DNA from: Alphaproteobacteria bacterium
Lineage (GTDB): Bacteria; Pseudomonadota; Alphaproteobacteria; UBA6615
Direction: 5' to 3'
NCBI GenBank assembly: GCA_039980135.1
Contig: JBDXCV010000010.1
Span: 1-64,000, forward strand
DNA length: 64,000 bases
Shown: positions 3,114 through 56,630 of the stretch, piece by piece
Layout of the letters: each line of letters starts with the position of its first letter
How positions within the stretch are numbered: the first letter of the stretch is position 1
The notes under the pieces: generated by a model
What the model saw: the letters and a program-made list of their open reading frames with translations, nothing else
The model's database searches: none
Told to the model about the DNA's origin: nothing
Position numbers and translations under genes: made by a program

Positions 3114-3497
3114 TCAGTCCCTGACGGTTTCGAATTCGCCCGGCGACGTGATTTCGAGCAGTTCACAGTCTTCCGACATCCACAGGGCGTCGTGCATGAT
3201 GCCGTCGGGCTGATAGAAGCAATCACCCTTGGAGACGGAGACTTCGCCTTCGCCGTCGAACCAGAAGCGGGCCTCACCCTGCAACACGTAGATCATCTGG
3301 AAGTCGGTCATATGGGCATGCTTGCCCGTGTGATGGTCGGCCGATGGGTCGGCGATGCGAATGACATGGGCGCTGAACTGACCCTGCGTCGCGTCCCGGA
3401 TGCCCAGATCGCTGTATTCGAAGTCTTCGCGCAGCCCCTTTGTCCACTCGGCATCGCGCGCGTGCTTAACGGTAAATTTTTCTTTTCCCGCTTTCAT
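3114..3497 (-). CDS. Small cupin-domain protein
   Basis: A 127-residue single-domain cupin. The metal-binding motif is seen as H-x-GKHAH around the middle of the chain, followed by the second cupin motif around GDCFYQPDGIMHDAL. The ATG at 3497 is chosen over an upstream in-frame start at 3557 because GGGGAGG sits nine bases before it. The substrate cannot be told; small cupins of this sort are isomerases, dioxygenases or metabolite sensors. It lies downstream of an opposite-strand small gene and upstream of gcdH on the same strand, but about 100 bp separate the two. Confidence 0.75.
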   Translation of the reverse strand: MKAGKEKFTVKHARDAEWTKGLREDFEYSDLGIRDATQGQFSAHVIRIADPSADHHTGKHAHMTDFQMIYVLQGEARFWFDGEGEVSVSKGDCFYQPDGIMHDALWMSEDCELLEITSPGEFETVRD

Positions 3498-3584
3498 GAA
3501 TTCATTCCTCCCCGGAGTTCTGTCCTGGGATCGGACTATAAGCCGGTGTGTTTGCACTGACCATCACCGCGGAGAGCAAGTGAT

Positions 3585-3830
3585 ATGGTGGGACTTCCAC
3601 GCGCCAAACCCCGACGCATGGCGGGGGGCAACGTGATCTTCGAGTTCTCCGCCGTGGGGAACGCGGTCAAGGTTTGCGCGGTCGATGCCGACACCGGGTT
3701 CGAGGTCTCGATCGTCGGCCCCGTCGGCGCGGGCGAGGAAGCGCTTCGACGGACGGCCCTGTCCAAGCTTCGCTATATGCTGGAAAAGCGCCGGCCCACG
3801 CCGCTGAAACGCGGGGGCATATTCGCCTGA
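3585..3830 (+). CDS. Small conserved protein of unknown function (DUF6898-like)
   Basis: An 81-residue protein with a compact core: VIFEFSAVGNAVKVCAVDADTG, then EVSIVGPVGAGEEAL, ending in a basic KLRYMLEKRR segment. The pattern recalls a small alphaproteobacterial family (DUF6898, recalled from memory and not checked). GGAG lies about ten bases before the ATG at 3585; a second start at 3618 (MAGGNVIFEF) is possible. It is convergent with the MucR-type gene. No function is known. Confidence 0.6.
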   Translation: MVGLPRAKPRRMAGGNVIFEFSAVGNAVKVCAVDADTGFEVSIVGPVGAGEEALRRTALSKLRYMLEKRRPTPLKRGGIFA

Positions 3831-3855
3831 CGTATCCTGTTTGGCGGTTGCGCGG

Positions 3856-4272
3856 CTAGCGTGCGCGCTTCCCGAGTCCGATCTGTTTGGCGAAGGCCGA
3901 ACGTTGTTTTGCGTAGTTCGGTGCCACCATCGGATAGTCCGCCGCGAGACCCCATTTGGCCCGGTACTCTTCCGGCGTCAGATTGTATGCGGTGCGAAGA
4001 TAGCGCTTGAGCATCTTCAGTTTCTTGCCGTCTTCCAGACAAATAATGTGGTCGGGGGTGATCGAGCGTTTCACGGGGACGGCAGGTTTCTGCTTTGTCT
4101 GGGTGCTTGTCGCACCGCCGCCGAGGCCCTCAAGGCTGCCGTAGACGGATTGGATGACTTCGGAAATCTGGGTTTCCGGAACCGGATTGTTGCCCACATA
4201 GGCGGACACAACTTGCGTGGTCATCCGGAGCAGTTCGTCGCGCGACAAGTTGTCTGGATTATTCTCTGTCAT
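3856..4272 (-). CDS. MucR/Ros-family transcriptional regulator lacking the usual zinc ligands
   Basis: A 138-residue MucR/Ros homologue of normal length. The family's prokaryotic zinc-finger region runs from ITPDHIICLEDGKKLKMLKRYL to the conserved AKWGLAADYPMVAPNYAKQRS. MucR proteins bind AT-rich DNA as oligomers and act like global silencers of exopolysaccharide, motility and cell-cycle genes (family knowledge). Only Cys78 of the classical Cys-x2-Cys...His...His set is present: position 81 is Asp, and the histidine positions are Tyr91 and Ala95/Tyr96. Zinc-independent Ros homologues are known in rhizobia. It is transcribed away from rpiB. Confidence 0.9.
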   Translation of the reverse strand: MTENNPDNLSRDELLRMTTQVVSAYVGNNPVPETQISEVIQSVYGSLEGLGGGATSTQTKQKPAVPVKRSITPDHIICLEDGKKLKMLKRYLRTAYNLTPEEYRAKWGLAADYPMVAPNYAKQRSAFAKQIGLGKRAR

Positions 4273-4637
4273 GTTTTTCCTGCCCCCACAGGCCGCGTTT
4301 GCTTCAGCACACGGTCGGCAATCGTGATCGCACGCAGGTGGAAGGCAGTCAATACGCCTTTCGAATAATCATCAGTACTTTTCGGCCATAGCGAAATGAA
4401 TAGATGGAACTGGACTAAGGCCCGACTTTGCGGATGATCGCGAAGACCCGCCTTTTTTGTCAGAGACTATGCCTGCATTACGATAGAAATGGTGCAATGC
4501 GCAAAACCCGCCACCGGCATTGTCCACACCATTTCACCGCGACAGCTTGTGTATCGCTGGCGGCGAATGACGAGATGTGGTAATTCGGGCGCGATCTGAA
4601 TATCCCGACTTCAGCGACGTTTGAACGGATTTGATGC
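4273..4637. other. Intergenic region between mucR-type gene and rpiB
   Basis: 365 bp with no convincing gene. It separates divergent genes and must hold both promoters. AT-rich patches (roughly 4355-4400 and 4470-4500) would suit MucR autoregulation, but no discrete operator or good -35/-10 pair can be called. Confidence 0.5.
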
Positions 4638-5075
4638 ATGAGCGAAGGCACGATCGCAATCGCGGCCGATCACGCAGGATACGCCCTCAAGGAAGACCTC
4701 AAGGCAGACCTTCTGGAGCGCGGTGTAACCATCCTTGATCTCGGCACCGATAGTGATGCCTCGGTCGACTATCCCGATTTCGGCAAAGCGGTTGGCGAGG
4801 CGATTGTGTCGGGGGCGGCGGACCAGGGCGTTATCATCTGCGGCACCGGCATCGGTATATCCATCGCGGCCAACCGCATCGCCGGTGTGCGCGCGGCTCT
4901 ATGCCATGACGCCACCACCGCGCGTCTGGCGCGCGAGCATAATGATGCGAATGTCCTGGCGCTGGGGGCTCGGGTGCTCGGCCAGGAAGTCGCGCGTGAC
5001 TGCCTGCGCGCATTTCTGGATGGGCAGTATCCGGGCGGTGAACGCCATGATCGTCGGGTCGGGAAACTGGGGTAG
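4638..5075 (+). CDS. rpiB: Ribose-5-phosphate isomerase B
   Basis: A 145-residue LacA/RpiB-family protein that interconverts ribose 5-phosphate and ribulose 5-phosphate in the pentose phosphate pathway. The N-terminal AADHAGYALKEDLKADL phosphate- and substrate-binding motif and the catalytic cysteine, Cys68 in IICGTGIGISIAANR, are both present. HDATTARLAREHNDANVLALG follows as in the family. It lies just before glyA, a common alphaproteobacterial order; the 75-bp gap to the preferred glyA start permits co-transcription. Ribulose 5-phosphate is also the sugar precursor used by the RibB domain encoded downstream. Confidence 0.95.
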   Translation: MSEGTIAIAADHAGYALKEDLKADLLERGVTILDLGTDSDASVDYPDFGKAVGEAIVSGAADQGVIICGTGIGISIAANRIAGVRAALCHDATTARLAREHNDANVLALGARVLGQEVARDCLRAFLDGQYPGGERHDRRVGKLG

Positions 5076-46728: not shown

Positions 46729-46804
46729 GTCCCCATCGTCTAGAGGCCTAGGACACCACCCTTTCAAGGTGGAGACACGGGTTCGAACCCCGTTGGGGAC
46801 GCCA
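46729..46804 (+). tRNA. tRNA-Glu(UUC)
   Basis: A 76-nt cloverleaf with encoded CCA. The acceptor stem is GTCCCCA/TGGGGAC. The anticodon stem CCACC/GGTGG encloses CTTTCAA, giving anticodon TTC. Its 3' 44 bases plus one following base recur perfectly at 51503-51547, marking the gene as the insertion site of an element. Confidence 0.97.
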
Positions 46805-46805
46805 A
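46761..46805 (+). repeat. Left 45-bp repeat (attL-like) inside tRNA-Glu
   Basis: It begins at the anticodon loop and runs one base past the CCA. It is identical to 51503-51547; identity breaks immediately outside both ends. Confidence 0.9.
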
Positions 46806-46852
46806 CTTTTCAGCCAAGCCGCGTTGCCCGCGAGCGCTCTTCCTCACCGGAC

Positions 46853-47233
46853 CTATGCGCCGCCTCGGAACAACGAAAAGCCCCAAGGCGTAAATTTGAA
46901 CGGCAGGTGAAAATGTTCGGTCACCTTGTCGATGCCGAAACGGAATATCGCCACTTCGAGAAACGACGGATCGGGTATGCCGACGCCGTTGTCCCGATAA
47001 TAGGTACCGACGTCGAACTCGACTTCGTACATGCCGCGTTCTACCCCGGTGCCGTCAGCCACCGTGTGTGCCAGTAGACCGCTTTCGGAGCAGGTCCCGC
47101 TGGCGATCTCAGTGCGAGCTTCATCTGTCCGCCACAGGCGTACTTGTAGACCGCCGGCCGGCACGCCACGCGCGATGTCGACCGCGTGAATGGATATGCC
47201 TCCCGCGCCGTAATTGCCGTTACTGGGTTTCAT
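46853..47233 (-). CDS. 5-hydroxyisourate hydrolase-like (transthyretin-related) protein
   Basis: A 126-residue transthyretin-fold protein. The HIU-hydrolase landmarks are GISIHAVDIARGVPAGGLQVRLWR with His16, the second pair in EHFHLPFKFTPWGFSLFRGGA with His107 and His109, and a GMYEVEFDVGTYYRDNG strand region. Two active-site features differ: the family Arg in the T-x-x-x-GR loop is not seen (Leu53 in CSESGLL), and the invariant C-terminal YRGS reads FRGGA. It may be an altered or inactive hydrolase. The ATG at 47233 gives the domain start. It is divergent from the uraD-tctB gene. Confidence 0.8.
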   Translation of the reverse strand: MKPSNGNYGAGGISIHAVDIARGVPAGGLQVRLWRTDEARTEIASGTCSESGLLAHTVADGTGVERGMYEVEFDVGTYYRDNGVGIPDPSFLEVAIFRFGIDKVTEHFHLPFKFTPWGFSLFRGGA

Positions 47234-47659
47234 ATTCGCAATCTCTTCTTTCGTTGTAACGACCCATCGGCGCGCTCGCGAACGGGCCGTTGAGGGTGTG
47301 GTTTCGCAGTCTCGCACCCAATCTGTCATGGCCGTTCGCTTGATCCAAGACAATCCACGGCCGCGACAACGGAAATTCCATGCCGGTTCGAATTGGGCGC
47401 ATCGCCGCCTAATTTTCAGTCAGAACTCCATGATCTGGTGAATATTCGTACACGCTGAAACGGCGTGGGGGGCAGTATTGCGCGAAATTTGGCCGCCCGG
47501 CTTCTGGCACAACGTTTGCAATATCTATGGCGACGTCAATGGCAACGAACCAAAGGGCCGGCCGTCAAGTGACGACAGCGAATGCGGCACGGTGATCTGG
47601 TCAGGGGACTCCCTCAGCCACCGACGAACCAACTCCCCTGACGGACAGCGACCCATTTA
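47234..47659. other. Divergent intergenic region with a 9-bp inverted repeat
   Basis: 426 bp separating the HIU-hydrolase-like gene and the TTT operon. GTCAGGGGA (47600-47608) and TCCCCTGAC (47634-47642) form a perfect inverted repeat 17 bp before the uraD-tctB start, a possible operator or leader hairpin. A short frame at 47478-47660 is not convincing as a gene. Confidence 0.5.
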
Positions 47660-48658
47660 ATGCCAACCGACAAGCTCGAAGAACTCAACAGCGCGGATGA
47701 CGAGCGGGCAGTCGCGCTTGTCGGGCCATTGATCGAACGGGCACCCGAGATCGCAGCTGCCGTCGCGCGCCTTCGTCCATTCGATAGCAAGGATGATTTG
47801 GTTCAGGGCATCAGAGATGAGCTGCGCAAGCTGAATGCAACGGCGCGGGTCGAACTTTTCAATGCCCACCCTGAGCTTGCCCCGGAAAACCCTCTCGCGA
47901 TGACGGATATGTCCCAGGCGGAACAGGGACGTATGGATCTTACGGGAGACGACAACGCTTATCGCGCCCGGATTACTGACCTGAACACGCGCTACCGAGC
48001 CAAATTCGCCTTCCCCTTCATCACCGCGCTGGTGCGCCATTCGGATATGGAAAGCGTCCTGACTGAATTCGAGGGTCGTCTCGCCAACGATCATCAGGAA
48101 GAACTCGAAAACGCGCTTGAACAGGTGATCATGGTGAGCGCGTCGCGCGCTCGCGCCCTGTTCGGTGGCGGCGCTGGGCCTGAAGCGTCGGGGACAGCGG
48201 AGGTCCATGACCATCGGGTCCGGGCCTGGGGCGGCGAGATCGGCGGGGCAATACTTTTTGCCATCAGCATCATTTTCATAATCGGTGGCTTGCAACTGGG
48301 ACTCGGCTCGCCGCTGCGCCTGGGCACCGGTGCATTTCCGTTCCTGACCGGCCTGATCTTGGCCGGCCTCTCGGTTGTCGTCTGCATCTACGAAATGCGG
48401 GGCCGGGAAGGGCTCGCTGAGAAGCCGGACTGGATGGGGTTCCTGGCCATCATCGGGGCGCTGGCCGTCTTTGCCGCAACGGCCGATCGTTTCGGGCTCA
48501 TGCCCGCCGCGTTTCTGGCGGTCGTCGTGGCGAGCCTGCCTGATCGAAACCTGCCGCTCGCGGGCAAAGCCGTGCTCGGCGGTGTCGTCGCCACGGCGTC
48601 CTGGGTTCTGTTCATCGAAATGCTGAACCTGCCCTTCAAAGCGTTTGCGGTGATGTAG
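47660..48658 (+). CDS. Fusion of OHCU decarboxylase (UraD) and TctB transporter subunit
   Basis: A 332-residue protein in one uninterrupted frame. Residues about 8-168 match OHCU decarboxylase, the third enzyme of urate breakdown: ARLRPFDSKDDLVQGI, FNAHPELAPENPLA with the catalytic-type His70, SQAEQGRM with Glu88, the conserved LNTRYRAKFAFPFITALVRHSD, and LTEFEGRLANDHQEELENALEQV. A Gly/Ala-rich linker (169-190) leads to TctB: four to five hydrophobic spans at about 195-212, 224-244, 258-275, 279-293 and 303-321, with GSPLRLGTGAFPFLTG typical of TctB. TctB is normally a stand-alone subunit of about 150 residues. The gene ends 2 bp before tctA. Transport of a ureide-type carboxylate is inferred. 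Confidence 0.85.
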   Translation: MPTDKLEELNSADDERAVALVGPLIERAPEIAAAVARLRPFDSKDDLVQGIRDELRKLNATARVELFNAHPELAPENPLAMTDMSQAEQGRMDLTGDDNAYRARITDLNTRYRAKFAFPFITALVRHSDMESVLTEFEGRLANDHQEELENALEQVIMVSASRARALFGGGAGPEASGTAEVHDHRVRAWGGEIGGAILFAISIIFIIGGLQLGLGSPLRLGTGAFPFLTGLILAGLSVVVCIYEMRGREGLAEKPDWMGFLAIIGALAVFAATADRFGLMPAAFLAVVVASLPDRNLPLAGKAVLGGVVATASWVLFIEMLNLPFKAFAVM

Positions 48659-48660
48659 CC

Positions 48661-50199
48661 ATGGATATCGTCGCGAGTTTCTACGTCGGTCTGCTGGTCG
48701 TCCTGGAACCCCAGAACCTGATGTACTGCTTCATTGGTGTGTTTCTCGGCACCTTCATCGGCGTGTTGCCCGGTATCGGTTCGATGGCGGCGATCTCTAT
48801 GATCCTGCCGGTCACCTTTGCTCTCGAGCCGACCTCGGCGCTGGTGATGATCGCCGGCGTTTACTACGGCGCGGAATATGGGGGGTCGATCGCCTCGATA
48901 TTGCTGAACATTCCCGGTACGCCGGCGGCGTCGATTACAGCGATCGAAGGCTACCCGATGGCCCGCAAGGGCCGGGCCGGGGTTGCCCTGTTCTCCACCG
49001 CGACGGCCTCGTTCGGCGGCGGCATAATCGGCATGATCGTGATCGCTGTCTTGTCGCCCTCCCTTGCCAAGCTCGCCTTGTCGTTTGGCCCGGCCGACTA
49101 CTTCGCGGTGATTCTGCTGGGGTTGATGGCGGCCTCCGCCGTCAGCAACGGCGGTGCGCTGAAGGGCATCGCTATGGTGATCACCGGCCTGATGCTGGGC
49201 ACGATCGGCATCGATCTGACCACCGGCGATCTACGCTACACCATGGGCATCCCCGAGCTTCGCGACGGGGTGCATATCGTCATCGTGGCCATGGGCCTGT
49301 TCGGGGTGAGCGAGGTGATTGCGTCGATCCGCGCGAATAAGCCCGGCAGCGAGGCCCAGACGATCGACTACAACGATTTCTACCCCTCCTGGACGGACTG
49401 GAAATCCATGTTCGCGCCGATTCTGCGGGGCGGCGCGATCGGGTCGTTCTTCGGCGCGCTTCCCGGAACCGGCCAGACGATTGCGGCAGCGATTGCCTAT
49501 GCGGTGGAAAAACGCATCAATCCGCTGCGCGCAAAATTCGGGACCGGCGTCGTGCCCGGCGTTGCCGTGCCCGAGGCCGCCAACAATTCGGCGACCCAAA
49601 CCGCGTTCATCCCGACCCTGACTCTCGGCGTGCCCGGAAGCCCGCCGATGGCAATCGTCATCGGCGCGCTGATGATCTATGGCATCACGCCGGGACCGCG
49701 CCTGCTGACGGAAGAGCCGGATCTCTTCTGGGGGCTCGTCGCCAGTTTCCTGGTGGGCAACATCATGCTCATCATACTGAATATTCCGCTCATCGGAATC
49801 TGGGTACGCCTCCTGAAAATTCCCTACAAATACATGTACCCGACGATCATCGTTCTGATCTGCATGGGCGTCTACAGCCTCAATAACAACGTGTTCGACA
49901 TCTGGCTTACGCTGATCATCGGCGCCATCGGCTACCTGATGAAGCTGTTCAGGTTCGAGCCTGCTCCACTTCTTCTCGGTTTCGTCCTGGGTCCGCTGAT
50001 GGAGGAGCAGTTGCGTCGGGCCATGTTGCTTTCGCGTGGCGACCCCATGGTGTTCCTCGAGCGCCCGATCAGCGCCACGCTCATTGCCATCACCGCAGGA
50101 ATCCTCGTCTTCGCGACCTACGCGACGATCCGCAAGCGGCGCGCAATTACACGAACAACCAGAATTCAACAACCTCAACAGGAAGGACCAAACACATGA
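48661..50199 (+). CDS. tctA: TTT transporter large membrane subunit TctA
   Basis: A 512-residue, 10-12-helix membrane protein. The TctA signatures are GTFIGVLPGIGSMAAISMILPVTF, YYGAEYGGSIASILLNIPGTPAASITAIEGYPMARKGRA, and the second inverted copy GSFFGALPGTGQTIAAAIAYAVEK with ANNSATQTAFIPTLTLGVPGSPPMAI. It is the translocating channel that works with TctB and the periplasmic TctC. It lies 2 bp after the uraD-tctB gene and overlaps tctC by 4 bp. Confidence 0.95.
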   Translation: MDIVASFYVGLLVVLEPQNLMYCFIGVFLGTFIGVLPGIGSMAAISMILPVTFALEPTSALVMIAGVYYGAEYGGSIASILLNIPGTPAASITAIEGYPMARKGRAGVALFSTATASFGGGIIGMIVIAVLSPSLAKLALSFGPADYFAVILLGLMAASAVSNGGALKGIAMVITGLMLGTIGIDLTTGDLRYTMGIPELRDGVHIVIVAMGLFGVSEVIASIRANKPGSEAQTIDYNDFYPSWTDWKSMFAPILRGGAIGSFFGALPGTGQTIAAAIAYAVEKRINPLRAKFGTGVVPGVAVPEAANNSATQTAFIPTLTLGVPGSPPMAIVIGALMIYGITPGPRLLTEEPDLFWGLVASFLVGNIMLIILNIPLIGIWVRLLKIPYKYMYPTIIVLICMGVYSLNNNVFDIWLTLIIGAIGYLMKLFRFEPAPLLLGFVLGPLMEEQLRRAMLLSRGDPMVFLERPISATLIAITAGILVFATYATIRKRRAITRTTRIQQPQQEGPNT

Positions 50200-51173
50200 A
50201 ACTCAACCTGAAAGCATTGCTCGGAACGGGTATTGCGGCACTCGCAATTGCGACGGCCCCAGCGGCCATAGCGGCCCCCGATGCCTGGACCAGCGAACCG
50301 GTTCGTATTGTCGTGACATTCCCGCCGGGTGGCACGAGCGACCTTGTCGCACGTCTTCTGGCACAGCATCTGGATGCCGACTTCGGTCAAAAGGCGGTGG
50401 TCGATAACCGACCGGGTGCTGCGGGCACGGTCGCGGCCGACTACGTCTCACAGCAGGCACCGGATGGCACGACATTGATTCTGGCGAACAACGCCCCCTA
50501 CACAATCGCGCCAACCCGGTTCAAATCCATCCCCTACGACCCGGTCAAGGGCGCGACTCACGTCGCCTATATCGGCGCGTCCGCGCCGGGTTTGTTCGTG
50601 CAGCCCAAGGTCGGTATCAACACCCTCGACGAGTACATTGCGCATGTGAAGAAATCGCCGATGACCTATGGATCGAGCGGGGTCGGTTCGATCTCGCACA
50701 TCCTGGGTGAAGCGGTCGATGCCGCACTGGGGGTCAAGTCGATCCACGTGCCTTACAAGGGCAGCGCACCCGCGATCCAGGATTTCCGGGCCGGAGTCCT
50801 CGATACTTTCTACGATATGGTTGTGCAGAACAGCGACATGATCGAAGACAAGGAAGCGGTGGCTATTGCTATCGCGTCGCCGGAGCGTAACCCCGAGTTG
50901 CCAAGCGTGCCGACCTTCCGCGAACAGGGCTACGACATCGTCATCGAAAACTGGGTGGGCCTCTCGGCGCCGGCTGGTATGGACCCGGCAATGACGGAGG
51001 CGATCAACGAGACCGTCCTCGCTGTCTTTGCCAATCCGGATGTCAAAAAACGCCTGATCGAACTCGGCATCACCCACCGTGCGATGTCGAGCGCGGATTA
51101 CACGGCTTTCGTCACCAAGCAGATTGAAGTGTGGGCGCCCTTGATCGTTTCGTCGGGTATCGTCGAAAAATAG
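50196..51173 (+). CDS. tctC: TTT periplasmic substrate-binding protein TctC
   Basis: A 325-residue exported protein of the Bug/TctC family. A signal peptide ends near AAIAA. The two-lobed fold shows VRIVVTFPPGGTSDLVARLLAQHL, VDNRPGAAGTVAADYVSQQAPDGTTLILANN, YGSSGVGSISHILGEAVDAALGVKSIHVPYKGSAPAIQDFRAG and TFREQGYDIVIENWVGLSAPAG. The ligand cannot be read from sequence; family members bind carboxylates. The ATG overlaps the tctA stop (ATGA). Confidence 0.94.
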   Translation: MKLNLKALLGTGIAALAIATAPAAIAAPDAWTSEPVRIVVTFPPGGTSDLVARLLAQHLDADFGQKAVVDNRPGAAGTVAADYVSQQAPDGTTLILANNAPYTIAPTRFKSIPYDPVKGATHVAYIGASAPGLFVQPKVGINTLDEYIAHVKKSPMTYGSSGVGSISHILGEAVDAALGVKSIHVPYKGSAPAIQDFRAGVLDTFYDMVVQNSDMIEDKEAVAIAIASPERNPELPSVPTFREQGYDIVIENWVGLSAPAGMDPAMTEAINETVLAVFANPDVKKRLIELGITHRAMSSADYTAFVTKQIEVWAPLIVSSGIVEK

Positions 51174-51223
51174 CGGAATCGCGGATGGCGGTCCCGCGAG
51201 TTTGCGGGGCTGCTATCCGCGCT

Positions 51224-51357
51224 CTACCGATACAACATCACCGATATCTTGCAGCTGCGGACCATCTCCATCGTGGTCGCGCCGATGATCAGTTTGCATA
51301 TCTGTGAAAAGCCGCAGACGCTCATAACTTGAAGGCCGATGCCCTCGCGCTCACGCC
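51224..51357 (-). pseudogene. Decayed 3' fragment of a uspA gene
   Basis: This stretch is colinear with the last 133 bp of the intact uspA gene at 57048, with about ten mismatches in the first 77 bases. On the minus strand it still reads KLIIGATTMEMVRSCKISVMLYR and a stop, against NLIIGSTTTEMVRSCKIPVILYR in the intact protein. No start or upstream body remains. The surrounding 51174-51502 has no gene; CGAGTGTGAA occurs twice, 25 bp apart. Confidence 0.75.
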
Positions 51358-51502
51358 CTCAACTGATAATTGCTGCGCAGGTTGTTGGCTCTGAAAAGGT
51401 GCAATACAGTTTTAATTTCGAGTGTGAACACTGTGGGTTTCACCGAGTGTGAATTCATACTTAGAGATTAAAACCCCTTGGAATTCTGCGAATTCACCCT
51501 CT

Positions 51503-51547
51503 CTTTCAAGGTGGAGACACGGGTTCGAACCCCGTTGGGGACGCCAA
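51503..51547 (+). repeat. Right 45-bp repeat (attR-like), copy of tRNA-Glu 3' end
   Basis: Identical to 46761-46805. The 5' half of a tRNA is missing upstream, so this copy is not a tRNA gene. Confidence 0.9.
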
Positions 51548-51561
51548 TTCCCTGAAGCCAG

Positions 51562-51906
51562 CTACTTCACGGGCACGGGGGCCACGCGCCGTCCGCTTCG
51601 CACAACTCGGTAAATGGTATTTTCCGTCTTCATGGTCTTGACGCATTGCTCCCCAACACTGGTGTGCGTGCAGAGCTGTGAATCGGCTGTCACCCGCCAT
51701 TTCCATGTCCGGAAGAATAAGTTTACGCCGTTGTCTACTTCCTTATCGAGCACACCATCCGACTTGAAATGGAGTGTGATTTTGTCACCGCTACGGGGCG
51801 ACCTGTATGTGTGCGAGGTACCCGTATAGGAGGATTGAATTTCATCGACGGTGGGAATGGATTCCGTATCGGCATGAGCTGCACCCAGAAATGCAACGCT
51901 CACCAT
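51562..51906 (-). CDS. Small exported protein of unknown function, signal region possibly frameshifted
   Basis: A 114-residue protein as it stands (MVSVAFLGAAHADTESIPTVDEI...). The mature part has SYTGTSHTYRSPRSGDKITLHFKSDG and FFRTWKWRVTADSQLCTHTSVGEQCVKTMKTENTIYRVV, with two Cys that could pair. The signal peptide is too short from this start. An ATG at 51938 with GGGGGG six bases upstream enters a run of six T; one extra T would join it in frame and give a full signal peptide (residues FFQRAAAVVMVSVAFLGAAHA). A frameshift or sequencing error is therefore likely. Confidence 0.6.
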   Translation of the reverse strand: MVSVAFLGAAHADTESIPTVDEIQSSYTGTSHTYRSPRSGDKITLHFKSDGVLDKEVDNGVNLFFRTWKWRVTADSQLCTHTSVGEQCVKTMKTENTIYRVVRSGRRVAPVPVK

Positions 51907-51957
51907 GACGACAGCGGCAGCGCGTTGAAAAAAGCCATAGTTGTCCCCCCGAGTTGA

Positions 51958-52131
51958 TTACTGGCCTTGCTCGTTTTTCAGTCGGCCAATCCGCATTGTT
52001 GCGTCAGCGATAACATCGCCAAGTTGCAAATCTGAACCGGACGACAACCGATACTCACAACAAATATCTGCCCGGCATTGCGTGATGCGGGAGCGCAGCT
52101 CGTCCCTTCGAGGGGGCTCAACGTTCCGCAA
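51958..52131 (-). CDS. Possible small protein with TTG start
   Basis: A 57-residue frame, (L)RNVEPPRRDELRSRITQCRADICCEYRLSSGSDLQLGDVIADATMRIGRLKNEQGQ in pieces, with a balanced, protein-like composition. It fits exactly between the genes ending at 52142 and starting at 51938/51906. There is no ribosome site and no ATG, so it may be spurious or the tail of a broken gene. Confidence 0.25.
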   Translation of the reverse strand: MRNVEPPRRDELRSRITQCRADICCEYRLSSGSDLQLGDVIADATMRIGRLKNEQGQ

Positions 52132-52141
52132 ATGTCGGATT

Positions 52142-52795
52142 CTAGAATCGCACCAGGCGACTGATGACGGGTACCTGACTGGCGCGGGCCGCCGGGTCGA
52201 CCCGTATCGTGATCGATTTCTCGCCGGAACTTGCCTTGTAAATGCCGTTGGGGAACAAGCTGATGTCGGTCTCGGCCAGATCGAAAATCCGACTGTCAGG
52301 GGCAATCGTGAAGTTTGCGACCTTCCTGTCCCGCCGTTCGATGACTATCTCGGACGGGATCTCGTCAAACACAAAAACCGGGCGCGTACCGTAGATGGTG
52401 ACCACGGGGTCCCCGCCGGCCGCGGCACGGAAGGCGACAACACCGGATTCGTTCGACTGGCTGGAGGTCAATATCAGTTGATCGGTATCGCAGTTGACCT
52501 TCTCGCGCACGACCAAGCCACCGGAAATGCTGCTCTGCCTTTCTCCGACCGTAATCTTCCCGCCGGTTACGGTCTCGCGCACGCAGGAAGCGAGATAACT
52601 AAGAATGACCTCGCCGTCCGTTCCGAGTTCGACCGTGTCACCAGTGTCGAGAAACTGCATGACGGCGACGCCCGGCAATCCGGAGAGAACGTCTTCCACC
52701 AGAGCCGCGGGTTCTGCGGCCGCTGCAGTTACCGGGGCCGTCAGAAACATGGCGCCGGCGATCATGGCGTACACGAGATGTCGTATGGCGTTCAT
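52142..52795 (-). CDS. Exported protein of unknown function, FecR-like
   Basis: A 217-residue protein with a signal peptide (MNAIRHLVYAMIAGAMFLTAPVTAAAA). After it comes a beta-rich segment, GDTVELGTDGEVILSYLASCVRETVTGGKITVGERQSSISGG, that resembles FecR-type periplasmic domains where Gly-rich turns follow short strands. The remainder (FAIP-type strands, IVIERRDRKVANFTIAPDS) is unassigned. It lies 33 bp after the caspase gene on the same strand, so the two are probably co-expressed and act together outside the cytoplasm. Confidence 0.65.
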   Translation of the reverse strand: MNAIRHLVYAMIAGAMFLTAPVTAAAAEPAALVEDVLSGLPGVAVMQFLDTGDTVELGTDGEVILSYLASCVRETVTGGKITVGERQSSISGGLVVREKVNCDTDQLILTSSQSNESGVVAFRAAAGGDPVVTIYGTRPVFVFDEIPSEIVIERRDRKVANFTIAPDSRIFDLAETDISLFPNGIYKASSGEKSITIRVDPAARASQVPVISRLVRF

Positions 52796-52828
52796 GTCAG
52801 TTCGGTTCCAAACTCTGATTTATGGTTG

Positions 52829-54781
52829 TTACTCAACGAGCATGGCCAACGGTGTTGCGGTCTGTCCGGTCCATTCGAACAGGAAATTCTCGACCTTCCT
52901 TGGGCCATTGCTGCAACCGTAGTTACCAACGCCGGAAACGAATGGTTGGCTCGATGTAAGCTCCAGCACGATGCCGTCATGGCGGCGCCCGAGGACCCTG
53001 AACGCTTCGATATCGAGATCGCAGCCTGCTTTCGTCGAATCGAAAATCGTTCTCTTCCTTGTCTGTTCGATAAGCTTCTCCAGAGCTTTTCTGATTTCTC
53101 GCTCGTTGTCGTCGATGTAGGCGAGGATGCCTGACACATCGTCGGCATTGGCTGTTGAAAGCTCTGGTTCGCCGGGGGTCGGCACGGAAACGTTGGGTGC
53201 GCTTAACCGTGCAATCTGTGGTGGCTCCGGTCGTGCGTCGCGCGTTTCCGCCCGGCTGCGCGCGAGCGCGGCATATGCGCCGTCGGGATAGGTCGATAGG
53301 TACGACCGGTAATCTTCCGGGCGCGTGCTGTTCTCGATGGATTTCCAGAAAGTCTGTTCGACGGCCAATTTCTGTGCCGCACGTTCAGCTGCCACACGTT
53401 CAGCCGTCGCGCGCTCGGATGCCTCCGCTGCTGCCTGCTGTTGCTGGGCGTTATTTCGCTCGCGTGCCAACTGCTCTGCATTCCTTCGTGCGACGAGGGA
53501 ATCCGCTCGGCTCCGTGCCAGTGCCGCATATCTGCCATTGGGGTAGGCGGACAGGTACGATTGGTGGTCTTCGGGACGTGCGCTGTTCTTTATCGAGTTC
53601 CAGAACTCCTGCTCGACGGCTATTTCCTGGGCGGCGCGTGAACTGGCGGCTGCGCGCCTGGCGGCCTCCGCCGCCTCTTCCTCCTGCCGCGACAGGGCAT
53701 CGATTCGTGCCCGCGCCAGCAGCATGAATTGTCCTTCCGGATAGGTCCCGAGATAGGCCTCGAAGTCACCCGTATTCTCGCTTTCCTTGATCGAGTTCCA
53801 GAAGGCCAGTTCAACCGCCGCCGGCGTCACCGGCGATGCCCCATGCGGGTTCGCGGGATTCGGCGCGGTCGCGGGAACCGGTATCGATGCCAGGTGTGCG
53901 GATGATTGTTGCTGGGGCAGCAGGAAGACGAAGTCCCCCCGGTCGTATTTCAGGTCCCGCAGCTTGCCGCTGCGTGGTGTTTGCGCACCCTGTGTGAAGT
54001 TTGTGAGGCGATTGGTGATGTGGAACCCGATCTCCGTCGCGGTCACATAGCCATCGCCGTTGACATCCGCGGCCTCATCGCCGTCCAACGCGGCGAGGAA
54101 CAGCTTCCGGAATGTCCCGTCGTCCGACACGGTCTGGTCGGCGTCGCCCGAGGTCAGGAACTGGCGCACAGGCTTGGTCGAGGCATGGGTGATCGCCGCC
54201 GGCGGCGCGGAACGCTGTTGCGAGAACACTGTCCCGGCAAAGCAGCTGTCAAAAATAGAAAACACGTGCTTCGCCTGGGCGATGCGTTGCAGTGAGGCGA
54301 GGTCGCCCATATGCAGGGCCGAGAAACGGAACTCCGCCGATCCCGGCGGCGGTGCGTCGGCGGGCACGATATAGCCTTCGCCGTCTTCCGTGTGTCCATG
54401 CCCTGCGAACCAGACGAACAGCCGTGCTTCCGGATCTCCGCCCTGGAGGGCATAGAATTTGCGTAGTTCGCGGCGTAGCGCATCCCCGCCGAGGTTCTTC
54501 AGGAGGGTCACCTCGAAGCCCCGCGCTTCCAGCGCCGTGGCAACTTCCTCGGCGTCCTTCACGGCCATGGAAAGCCGCGGCCAGCCGTTCTGGTAGTCGT
54601 CGATGCCGATCACCAGCGCCTTGCTGGCACCGTACAGCTTCCAGCGTTCGACGACCTTCGAATCCGCATCTTCCGTCTCGCGCACGTCCACATACAGCGC
54701 CGAACTTGCCGGTGCGGCCTGAGCGGCGGCGGCCATGAACAGACCCAAACTCGCGCCTACGAATGTTCGAAATAGCTGCAT
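52829..54781 (-). CDS. Secreted caspase-fold (C14) peptidase with EF-hand-like loop and three repeats
   Basis: A 650-residue exported protein. A signal peptide spans about residues 1-22. The caspase domain (about 55-300) starts ALVIGIDDYQN and has the dyad His128 (WFAGHGHTEDGEGYIVPAD) and Cys180 (SIFDSCFAGT). A calcium-loop-like stretch (DVNGDGYVTATE, residues 239-250) follows. Three repeats of about 40 residues come next, each with FWNSIK or FWKSIE, D-x-x-x-YL-x-x-YP-x-G and LARSRA, separated by Ala/Glu/Arg-rich coiled linkers. The C-terminus (about 560-650) is unassigned. GGGGA precedes the ATG at 54781. It is probably an active orthocaspase-type peptidase acting in the periplasm. Confidence 0.88.
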   Translation of the reverse strand: MQLFRTFVGASLGLFMAAAAQAAPASSALYVDVRETEDADSKVVERWKLYGASKALVIGIDDYQNGWPRLSMAVKDAEEVATALEARGFEVTLLKNLGGDALRRELRKFYALQGGDPEARLFVWFAGHGHTEDGEGYIVPADAPPPGSAEFRFSALHMGDLASLQRIAQAKHVFSIFDSCFAGTVFSQQRSAPPAAITHASTKPVRQFLTSGDADQTVSDDGTFRKLFLAALDGDEAADVNGDGYVTATEIGFHITNRLTNFTQGAQTPRSGKLRDLKYDRGDFVFLLPQQQSSAHLASIPVPATAPNPANPHGASPVTPAAVELAFWNSIKESENTGDFEAYLGTYPEGQFMLLARARIDALSRQEEEAAEAARRAAASSRAAQEIAVEQEFWNSIKNSARPEDHQSYLSAYPNGRYAALARSRADSLVARRNAEQLARERNNAQQQQAAAEASERATAERVAAERAAQKLAVEQTFWKSIENSTRPEDYRSYLSTYPDGAYAALARSRAETRDARPEPPQIARLSAPNVSVPTPGEPELSTANADDVSGILAYIDDNEREIRKALEKLIEQTRKRTIFDSTKAGCDLDIEAFRVLGRRHDGIVLELTSSQPFVSGVGNYGCSNGPRKVENFLFEWTGQTATPLAMLVE

Positions 54782-55228
54782 GAGTCGTTCCCCATGAACG
54801 TCGACATAGGGATAGTAAGGGCAACTGGAAGTGACGCAAGTCACACTTCGATTAGAATAATTGCGCTCGTACCGTACGGGTTGGACCAGTCGGACTGCCG
54901 CTTTGTTGTCACCGCTCGCAAAGGCCTGCGACACAACGGCCTCCGAGACAACCGTCTCGGTCTGGCAGGACGGCCTAACAGCCTCGAGGGAGAATTTTCG
55001 TCTCAAGCATGCGCGCGACCGGAACCGGGCCAGCCCTCAAGCTCCGTTGTCTTCCGCAATTGCCAAAAAAATGTGCCTGTTGGCTTGATCATGAACAGTT
55101 CGCCAACGCCGGTGCGGCTCGAACGCCAGTAATTCCACGCACATTGCGCGCCGACACCACTGGTACGATTCTTGCTGATTGTTTGGCATGTCCAAACCCA
55201 AACAAACGCGCGCAAGGATCAAATAATT
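54782..55228. other. Intergenic region between caspase and Rieske genes
   Basis: 447 bp without a convincing gene; it holds divergent promoters. Two short inverted repeats are seen: GTGAC-GCAA-GTCAC (54831-54844) and CCGAGAC-AACC-GTCTCGG (54943-54960). Neither is followed by a T-run on either strand. Confidence 0.5.
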
Positions 55229-56464
55229 ATGACCGTTTCGATCACAGGGGGATCGGCTGTTCAGGCCATCCTGGATAAACTACCCCCACCCGGCGATCAT
55301 GTGGACGGTGCGCCGATGTTACCAGCCGAATGCTACACGTCGCCCGAATTCTTCGAATTCGAAAAGCATGAGGTGTTTCCACGCGCATGGATGTGCATCG
55401 GGCGTGAAGAGCAGATCCCGGAACCGGGAGACTATCTCTTCCATCAGGTCGGCGACGAACCTGTCCTCGTGGTGCGACGCGTGGATGGCTCGATCGGGGC
55501 GATGAGCGCCGTGTGCCAGCATCGTGGACAGGTTATTTCGAGCGAGTCCGGCGCGACGGGCCGATTCTTCCGCTGTCCCTTGCACTTCTGGAGCTACGAC
55601 CTGACCGGGCGCCTTGTCGGCGCTCCCAGGATTGAAGACGATGAAACCATCGCCTGCCTGCGGAATTCTGTTCGTCTTCCCGCCGTGCGTCTTGAAAACT
55701 GGCACGGATTTCTGTTCATCAACCTCGATCCCGACGCCCGGCCCCTGGCGCCAAGCCTTGCCAAGGTCGAGCCCTTCTGGACGGGCTATGAAGCGGCCGA
55801 CCTGGTCGCCGTGCCGCCGAAGATGGCGGAGGAGGCCCTGCCTTGGAACTGGAAGATACACGCAGAGAATTTCACTGACGCCTATCATCCCGAGTTCGTG
55901 CATCGCGGCACCCATGATTTCGCTCCCAGCAATCATCCCGACGGCGGTGTTGCGTTCACTCCCATGGCGGCAGGCGACAATGCGATCGTGCGGACCGTGC
56001 CGTTGTTGCGCCCCGATGGCGGCATGATGGAAGACGGATGGGGCGAAGCAGCGGAATTTCCGGCCATCGAAACCTTGTCTGCGGCGCAGCGAAGCCATGT
56101 CACCTTCGCGCTCATCCCGCCCAGCATGACCCTCATATTTGCGCCGGGAGCGATCTCGTATCAGCTTGTGGCGCCGGTTGGCGTGGAGGCGACGCTCGCG
56201 TCGAACGACCGTGTCACGGCGGGCGGATGGCTTCTGCCGCGCGCGACCCACGAGCGTGAGGACTTTGCGGCGCGCGCGACCGCGGTGCGCGCCGGCGCCA
56301 AAAAAATCTGGGTGCAGGATATCCCGGTCAATCTTGGGGTTCAGGCAGGCAAGAAATCCCGCTTTGTACCCGATGGACGGTATATGCCGTTGGAGACAAC
56401 GCTCCTCCAGTTCAATGCATGGCTCTTGCGGTCATATATGAGCGCGCGCGCCGCAGGTCCTTGA
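55229..56464 (+). CDS. Rieske oxygenase alpha subunit (ring-hydroxylating type)
   Basis: A 411-residue protein. The Rieske [2Fe-2S] ligands are Cys96-x-His98 and Cys116-x2-His119 (CQHRG and CPLHFW). The catalytic domain has the mononuclear iron motif ENFTDAYHPEFVHRGTHD, with the bridging Asp and the two His. It hydroxylates or demethylates an unknown, probably aromatic or quaternary-amine, substrate with electrons from a reductase that is not encoded nearby. The ATG at 55229 follows AAGGA; an earlier frame extension to 55172 is not supported. Confidence 0.9.
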   Translation: MTVSITGGSAVQAILDKLPPPGDHVDGAPMLPAECYTSPEFFEFEKHEVFPRAWMCIGREEQIPEPGDYLFHQVGDEPVLVVRRVDGSIGAMSAVCQHRGQVISSESGATGRFFRCPLHFWSYDLTGRLVGAPRIEDDETIACLRNSVRLPAVRLENWHGFLFINLDPDARPLAPSLAKVEPFWTGYEAADLVAVPPKMAEEALPWNWKIHAENFTDAYHPEFVHRGTHDFAPSNHPDGGVAFTPMAAGDNAIVRTVPLLRPDGGMMEDGWGEAAEFPAIETLSAAQRSHVTFALIPPSMTLIFAPGAISYQLVAPVGVEATLASNDRVTAGGWLLPRATHEREDFAARATAVRAGAKKIWVQDIPVNLGVQAGKKSRFVPDGRYMPLETTLLQFNAWLLRSYMSARAAGP

Positions 56465-56630
56465 GCCGATGGCCGGGTTGCGGAGCCTGCACGAATAGAC
56501 GTAGGGCCCGTACCACCGACAGGACTACTCCCCCCTGCGTCATCGCCCCATGAGGGTTGAGCAAATCGGCGTTTCTGGCTCATGATTGCCCCGAAGAATA
56601 TTTTGCTTTGAAAATAAAGGGGGAAGATTC

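Follow-up and report, generated by a model that had tools for sequence, protein, structure and literature searches.

The stretch of DNA analysed here, referred to as the window, comprises 64,000 nucleotides from an Alphaproteobacteria bacterium (UBA6615; assembly GCA_039980135.1, contig JBDXCV010000010.1, positions 1-64,000, forward strand). It carries a gene that joins a domain of the OHCU decarboxylase (UraD) family to the transporter subunit TctB, followed at once by tctA and tctC and faced by a divergent transthyretin/HIU-hydrolase-like gene, here called uraHv (Table 1). The first-pass annotation had read this gene order, a single open frame, a decarboxylase domain at residues about 8-168 and the residues His70 and Glu88 from the letters of the DNA, and it proved right on each of these points. 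The frame is uninterrupted throughout, Pfam recognises all three neighbouring genes, and both parts of the fusion protein score above their Pfam cut-offs (OHCU_decarbox, 111.9 bits against 24, E 5.5e-32; TctB, 45.2 bits against 29.1, E 1.3e-11), so that the N-terminal part does match the UraD family. The C-terminal part is further marked as TctB by four hydrophobic segments (residues 197-215, 225-243, 258-276 and 304-322) and by the adjoining tctA and tctC. Codons 160-210 of the fusion frame hold no in-frame ATG, GTG or TTG, which makes a separately started TctB unlikely. Downstream, the start of tctC overlaps the end of tctA by 4 bases. For uraHv, position 47233 is the likely start rather than 47353, and no signal peptide is apparent in its product.

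Table 1. Features of the uraD-tctB locus and of the island that carries it (positions in the window).
Feature	Position	Strand	Details
tRNA-Glu(TTC), island integration site	46729..46804	+	ARAGORN
Left 45-bp direct repeat, probable attL (3' part of tRNA-Glu)	46761..46805	+	exact repeat
uraHv, divergent transthyretin/HIU-hydrolase-like gene	46853..47233	-	126 aa, PF00576
uraD-tctB fusion gene	47660..48658	+	332 aa, one uninterrupted frame
UraD (OHCU decarboxylase-like) domain	47687..48151	+	residues 10-164, PF09349
Linker	48152..48229	+	residues about 165-190, low model confidence from residue 172
TctB domain	48239..48637	+	residues 194-326, PF07331
tctA, large transporter subunit	48661..50199	+	PF01970, E 2.7e-154
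tctC, periplasmic binding protein	50196..51173	+	PF03401, E 5.3e-56
Right 45-bp direct repeat, probable attR, island end	51503..51547	+	exact repeat

The UraD domain resembles OHCU decarboxylases in predicted fold as well as in sequence. Its AlphaFold2 model, with pLDDT mostly above 90, superimposes in Foldseek on zebrafish OHCU decarboxylase 2o70 with a target-normalised TM score of 0.90 and an rmsd of 1.8 A. His70, Glu88 and Arg163 of the fusion align with zebrafish His67, Glu87 and Arg161, which we take to be the catalytic residues of the enzyme, and are invariant across the cassettes described below and their near outgroups. Against the equivalog model TIGR03164 the domain reaches 96.1 bits and falls short of the cut-off (96.25) by 0.15 bits. 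Cassette UraDs form one group in a quick tree computed without bootstrap (SH-aLRT 91) and carry HPELAPxNPLAMT around their His. At five otherwise invariant positions the window copy alone is changed (A50G, L92M, L105I, A110T, G117A); all five changes are conservative and the domain therefore does not look decayed.

UraHv has diverged further. It belongs to the Transthyretin/HIUase family (PF00576, 78.9 bits, cut-off 25.3), and its AlphaFold2 model resembles HIU hydrolases (target-normalised TM 0.78-0.89; 0.86-0.89 for 8uw4), while its score of 76.0 bits against the equivalog TIGR02962 is under the cut-off of 87.45. A His, an Arg, a second His and a Tyr are reported to be important for HIU hydrolysis (PMC2834698). 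Both His are retained in UraHv, and the Arg of DGR and the Tyr of YRGS are replaced in all aligned cassette members, which also share a conserved C-terminal end, HFHLPxKFTPWGFSLFRGG, in place of HYHVPLLLSPYSYSTYRGS. In the quick tree (no bootstrap) UraHv is a long-branch group (SH-aLRT 100). The first-pass annotation had applied to the island pair the known succession of HIU hydrolase and UraD after urate oxidase. With two of the four HIU residues lost and a score below the equivalog cut-off, that reading is unsafe, and the claim is doubtful for UraHv, which has neither the key Arg nor the key Tyr.

The cassette lies on an island at tRNA-Glu. Exact 45-bp repeats of the 3' end of this tRNA are spaced 4,742 bp apart and enclose the cassette alone; the stretch 46761-51547 picked out in the first-pass annotation coincides exactly with the ends that these repeats define. 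The island has a G+C content of 59.8%, compared with 63.2% on its left. In genus relatives the tRNA-Glu is followed by other DNA or by a contig end, and the cassette is absent; in one of them (G020) the tRNA lies about 170 bp from sequence that matches the window at 56.6 kb. No further gene, and thus no integrase, was recognised between the repeats in the list of open reading frames, and one acting in trans or since lost would be needed. The tRNA repeats together with the absence from genus relatives point most simply to an island that was acquired and that carries no integrase. More widely, the region behind tRNA-Glu (window 46805-56600) is variable in the genus; a second stretch (51548-about 56545) seems to be stacked behind the cassette island at this tRNA. 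This second stretch contains a caspase-domain gene (52829-55006, minus strand; PF00656, E 5.6e-18). A gene for a Rieske oxygenase alpha subunit is found at 55172-56464 on the plus strand; its top NCBIfam model, glycine betaine monooxygenase, scores far under cut-off.

The whole-genome searches covered 24 genomes from the same family, 385 from the class and 397 from one other family; plasmids and GTDB contigs were scanned as well. The contig scan found nothing when the whole fusion served as a single-sequence query; an alignment of the clade then recovered cassettes. After removal of duplicates between collections, 15 independent cassettes remain: the window copy, L020 (Defluviimonas plasmid NZ_CP156080), L021 (plasmid CP031593), L053, L054, L055, L056, L058, L059, L060, L063, L117, L119, L120 and L122. 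They define a conserved alphaproteobacterial cassette consisting of a LysR gene, uraD-tctB-tctA-tctC and uraHv. The order of uraD ahead of tctB, tctA and tctC is kept in all 15, with uraHv placed between uraD and tctB in L021 and L117. UraHv was found in 12 cassettes, and two of the remaining contigs are too short to tell. Every one of the 14 other cassettes has a LysR gene, truncated at the contig end in two of them; only the window copy lacks it. No LysR remnant was found in the island and no orthologue elsewhere in the host genome, where the best matches have 25-28% identity; a simple scan revealed no sigma-70-like promoter. With the regulator missing and no orthologue of it found, expression of the window copy is uncertain.

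The first-pass annotation had proposed to look for the same fusion in other genomes. None was found: in 14 of the 15 cassettes uraD and tctB are separate genes, fused only in the window copy. On this sequence comparison the uraD-tctB fusion is a single-lineage event, derived from an unfused cassette. The deeper signal therefore lies in the cassette and not in the fusion, and coupling by fusion, known from one genome, is without comparative support. The cassette family is thus the more informative finding. Its 14 further members make a strong case for a functional link between a UraD enzyme and a TTT transporter, and their conservation suggests that importer and decarboxylase act on the same compound. 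A second type of fusion occurs in L117, where UraD and UraHv share one frame (reverse complement, 3285-4730), which indicates that neighbours are easily joined in this cassette family. A 463-aa frame in genome G993 had been taken for a UraD-UraHv-TctB triple fusion and was rejected, the DNA there encoding separate genes. Two further genes recur around these loci. An NMT1/THI5-like binding protein is repeatedly encoded beside UraD-TTT genes (L020, 10735-11715; L054, L055, L122, L065, L068), at loci that span Alpha- and Betaproteobacteria, and a gene of the cytidine/deoxycytidylate-deaminase family lies just past tctC on the opposite strand in L060 (11636-12127) and L056 (11676-12203).

Alignment with unfused relatives indicates how the joint arose. 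The fusion protein tracks orthologous UraD to ...RALFGG and then re-enters TctB at about residue 9, with AGPEAS where L060 has AGPEAN and with the DH....WGGEIGG register kept, which locates the joint near residues 169-172. Compared with the orthologues, the UraD tail, the stop codon, the spacer and the first tctB codons are missing, and both frames are in register; such a loss in several parts is not explicable by a single-base sequencing error. It looks like the result of one in-frame deletion. In the orthologous unfused cassettes uraD and tctB overlap by 4 bases or sit a few to 50 bases apart. An out-of-frame ATG with an upstream GGAGG near 48207 had raised the suspicion of a frameshift or base error at the joint, which was rejected, since the orthologous DH....W register agrees with the fused frame and not with this ATG.

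The host genome also encodes a canonical urate locus, on contig C3, with UraH, PuuE-UraD and PuuD; inspection of the sequence by eye adds an allantoicase, a ureidoglycolate lyase, an NCS2-type permease and a xanthine-dehydrogenase-type gene. The tree groups of cassette UraD and UraHv lie apart from these canonical enzymes, and given the urate locus elsewhere in the genome the island pair are acquired paralogues. The Defluviimonas cassette adjoins malate synthase G, puuD, uraH, puuE and ureidoglycolate lyase, a neighbourhood that favours a ureide as substrate, and in this organism a canonical UraH exists alongside the variant one. Outside the cassette group, the nearest UraDs are found in LysR-UraD-TRAP modules (Veronia L069, Mesorhizobium L062 and L101 in genome G176), so the pairing of this type of UraD with carboxylate importers recurs in a second transporter family. 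At L101 (2621-6591) the LysR-UraD-DctPQM module also encodes a member of the HIUase family whose leader is twin-arginine-like. The module adjoins another UraH, and a gene for an Asp/Glu/hydantoin racemase is nearby.

We think it somewhat probable that the island is an acquired uptake-and-decarboxylation cassette whose enzyme is tethered to TctB; the substrate, the direction of transport, the activity, the orientation and the benefit of tethering are what we infer. TctC would bind a carboxylate outside the cytoplasmic membrane and TctA and TctB would import it, whereupon the UraD-family decarboxylase would strip the carboxylate of the imported compound in the cytoplasm and UraHv would act on this compound or a neighbouring one. 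The occurrence of uraD with tctBAC in 15 cassettes and of outside UraDs beside TRAP genes argues that the imported carboxylate or its product would be the substrate of the decarboxylase; the likeliest candidates for the compound are ureides or imidazoline carboxylates with a relation to the urate pathway. L101, a single locus, leads to the hypothesis of a division of labour in which HIUase-family hydrolysis would take place outside, the carboxylate product would be imported and decarboxylation would follow inside. In the ancestor of the window copy uraD and tctB would have been adjacent, and a small in-frame deletion would have removed the stop codon of uraD together with the start of tctB; a short flexible linker would now tether the decarboxylase to the N-terminus of TctB on the cytoplasmic face. 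TctB N-termini are predicted to be cytoplasmic (PMC5812351), which should put the fused enzyme on the cytoplasmic side. The first-pass annotation had the transporter import a ureide or urate-derived carboxylate that is processed at the inner face of the membrane. The link between enzyme and transporter has since gained the support of the 14 cassettes, while the substrate and the action at the inner face are parts that we, too, infer. OHCU is metastable, which counts against it as an environmental nutrient. Products of urate oxidation have likewise been called metastable (PMC4562309). The narrow shortfall against TIGR03164, the two replaced UraHv residues, the second urate locus of the host and the lost regulator also count against our preferred explanation. 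It seems improbable to us that the TctB-built decarboxylase would also capture the entering carboxylate and thereby pull uptake, with a UraD/UraH pair re-specialised outside canonical urate breakdown, in what would be the first TTT system of this kind.

Chance loss of a stop may have joined two operon neighbours whose parts work independently, with no role for the tethering, a reading that agrees with our preferred explanation in everything except tethering and that we find neither more nor less credible than its opposite. It would account for one fused cassette among 15 independent ones, for the close spacing or overlap of the orthologous genes and for the joining of a different pair in L117. 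Nothing speaks directly against it, intact domains being predicted by neutral and functional coupling alike. Since only a single example is known, functional tethering is no more likely than a chance joining of neighbours. We regard it as possible, on the unlikely side, that the UraD-like and UraH-like proteins have been neofunctionalised and process a TTT-imported compound other than urate, such as an N-methylated product of urate or a different hydantoin or ureido carboxylate, the link to urate being only ancestral. The canonical locus elsewhere in the genome, the long branch of UraHv with its replaced Arg and Tyr and altered C-terminal end, the coexistence of both UraH types in Defluviimonas and the precedent of TmuH/TmuD in caffeine C-8 oxidation (PMC4408171) point in this direction; however, UraD keeps the residues that align with the presumed catalytic ones, and the Defluviimonas cassette is contiguous with urate-pathway genes. 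That the island is decaying, unexpressed after loss of its regulator and on its way out with the fusion as part of the decay, appears quite improbable: the missing LysR gene with its distant genomic matches, the negative result of the simple promoter scan and the absence of the cassette from genus relatives would fit, but all four remaining genes have open frames, are conserved and show few odd changes, and the deletion left both frames intact. An assembly or sequencing artefact, in which a stop and a start codon separating two real genes were lost, would agree with the unfused state of this joint in all other cassettes, but is very hard to believe, because a multi-codon deletion that leaves both genes in frame, and not a single-base error, would be required, in a genome that is 98.8% complete in 15 contigs.

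TTT transporters are many, but few have known substrates. A conserved cassette of a TTT transporter and one decarboxylase family sharply narrows the candidates, and the natural uraD-tctB fusion is a ready construct for testing orientation and enzyme-transporter coupling. According to a review of the family (PMC5812351), the function of TctB is not known. The cassettes further reveal a little-noticed branch of UraD/UraH paralogues that is tied to TTT and TRAP importers and that automatic annotation calls ordinary urate enzymes.

The first-pass annotation knew of no described UraD-TctB fusion, and our literature search is consistent with this, as it turned up no paper that connects TTT transporters with either UraD or HIU hydrolase, or TRAP transporters with UraD. 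With the OHCU decarboxylases (UraD, HpxQ; zebrafish 2o70, Klebsiella 3o7h) the fusion domain shares the predicted fold, the His/Glu/Arg set and the family score; it differs in forming its own clade, in lying just below the TIGR03164 cut-off and in being joined to a membrane protein. UraD is likewise one module of a bifunctional fusion in allantoin synthase (UraD-UraH, 5z5m) and in PuuE-UraD, whereas its partner here is a transporter subunit and not a pathway enzyme. TmuH and TmuD of Pseudomonas sp. CBB1, proposed as UraH and UraD homologues for the trimethylated intermediates of caffeine C-8 oxidation, are also a paralogous pair outside canonical urate catabolism; the likeness is one of description, and the available part of that paper describes them without a TTT transporter (PMC4408171). 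In the LysR-UraD-TRAP modules of Veronia, Mesorhizobium and G176, related types of LysR and UraD stand beside a carboxylate importer as in the cassette, with DctPQM and an unfused UraD in contrast to the TctABC of the cassette. Among TTT transporters (TctABC, TC 2.A.80), whose tctB, tctA and tctC are all matched here by Pfam, the sole subunit fusion found in a review of the family is TctA-TctB of Paraburkholderia caribensis (PMC5812351); TctB in the window differs in bearing a soluble enzyme domain.
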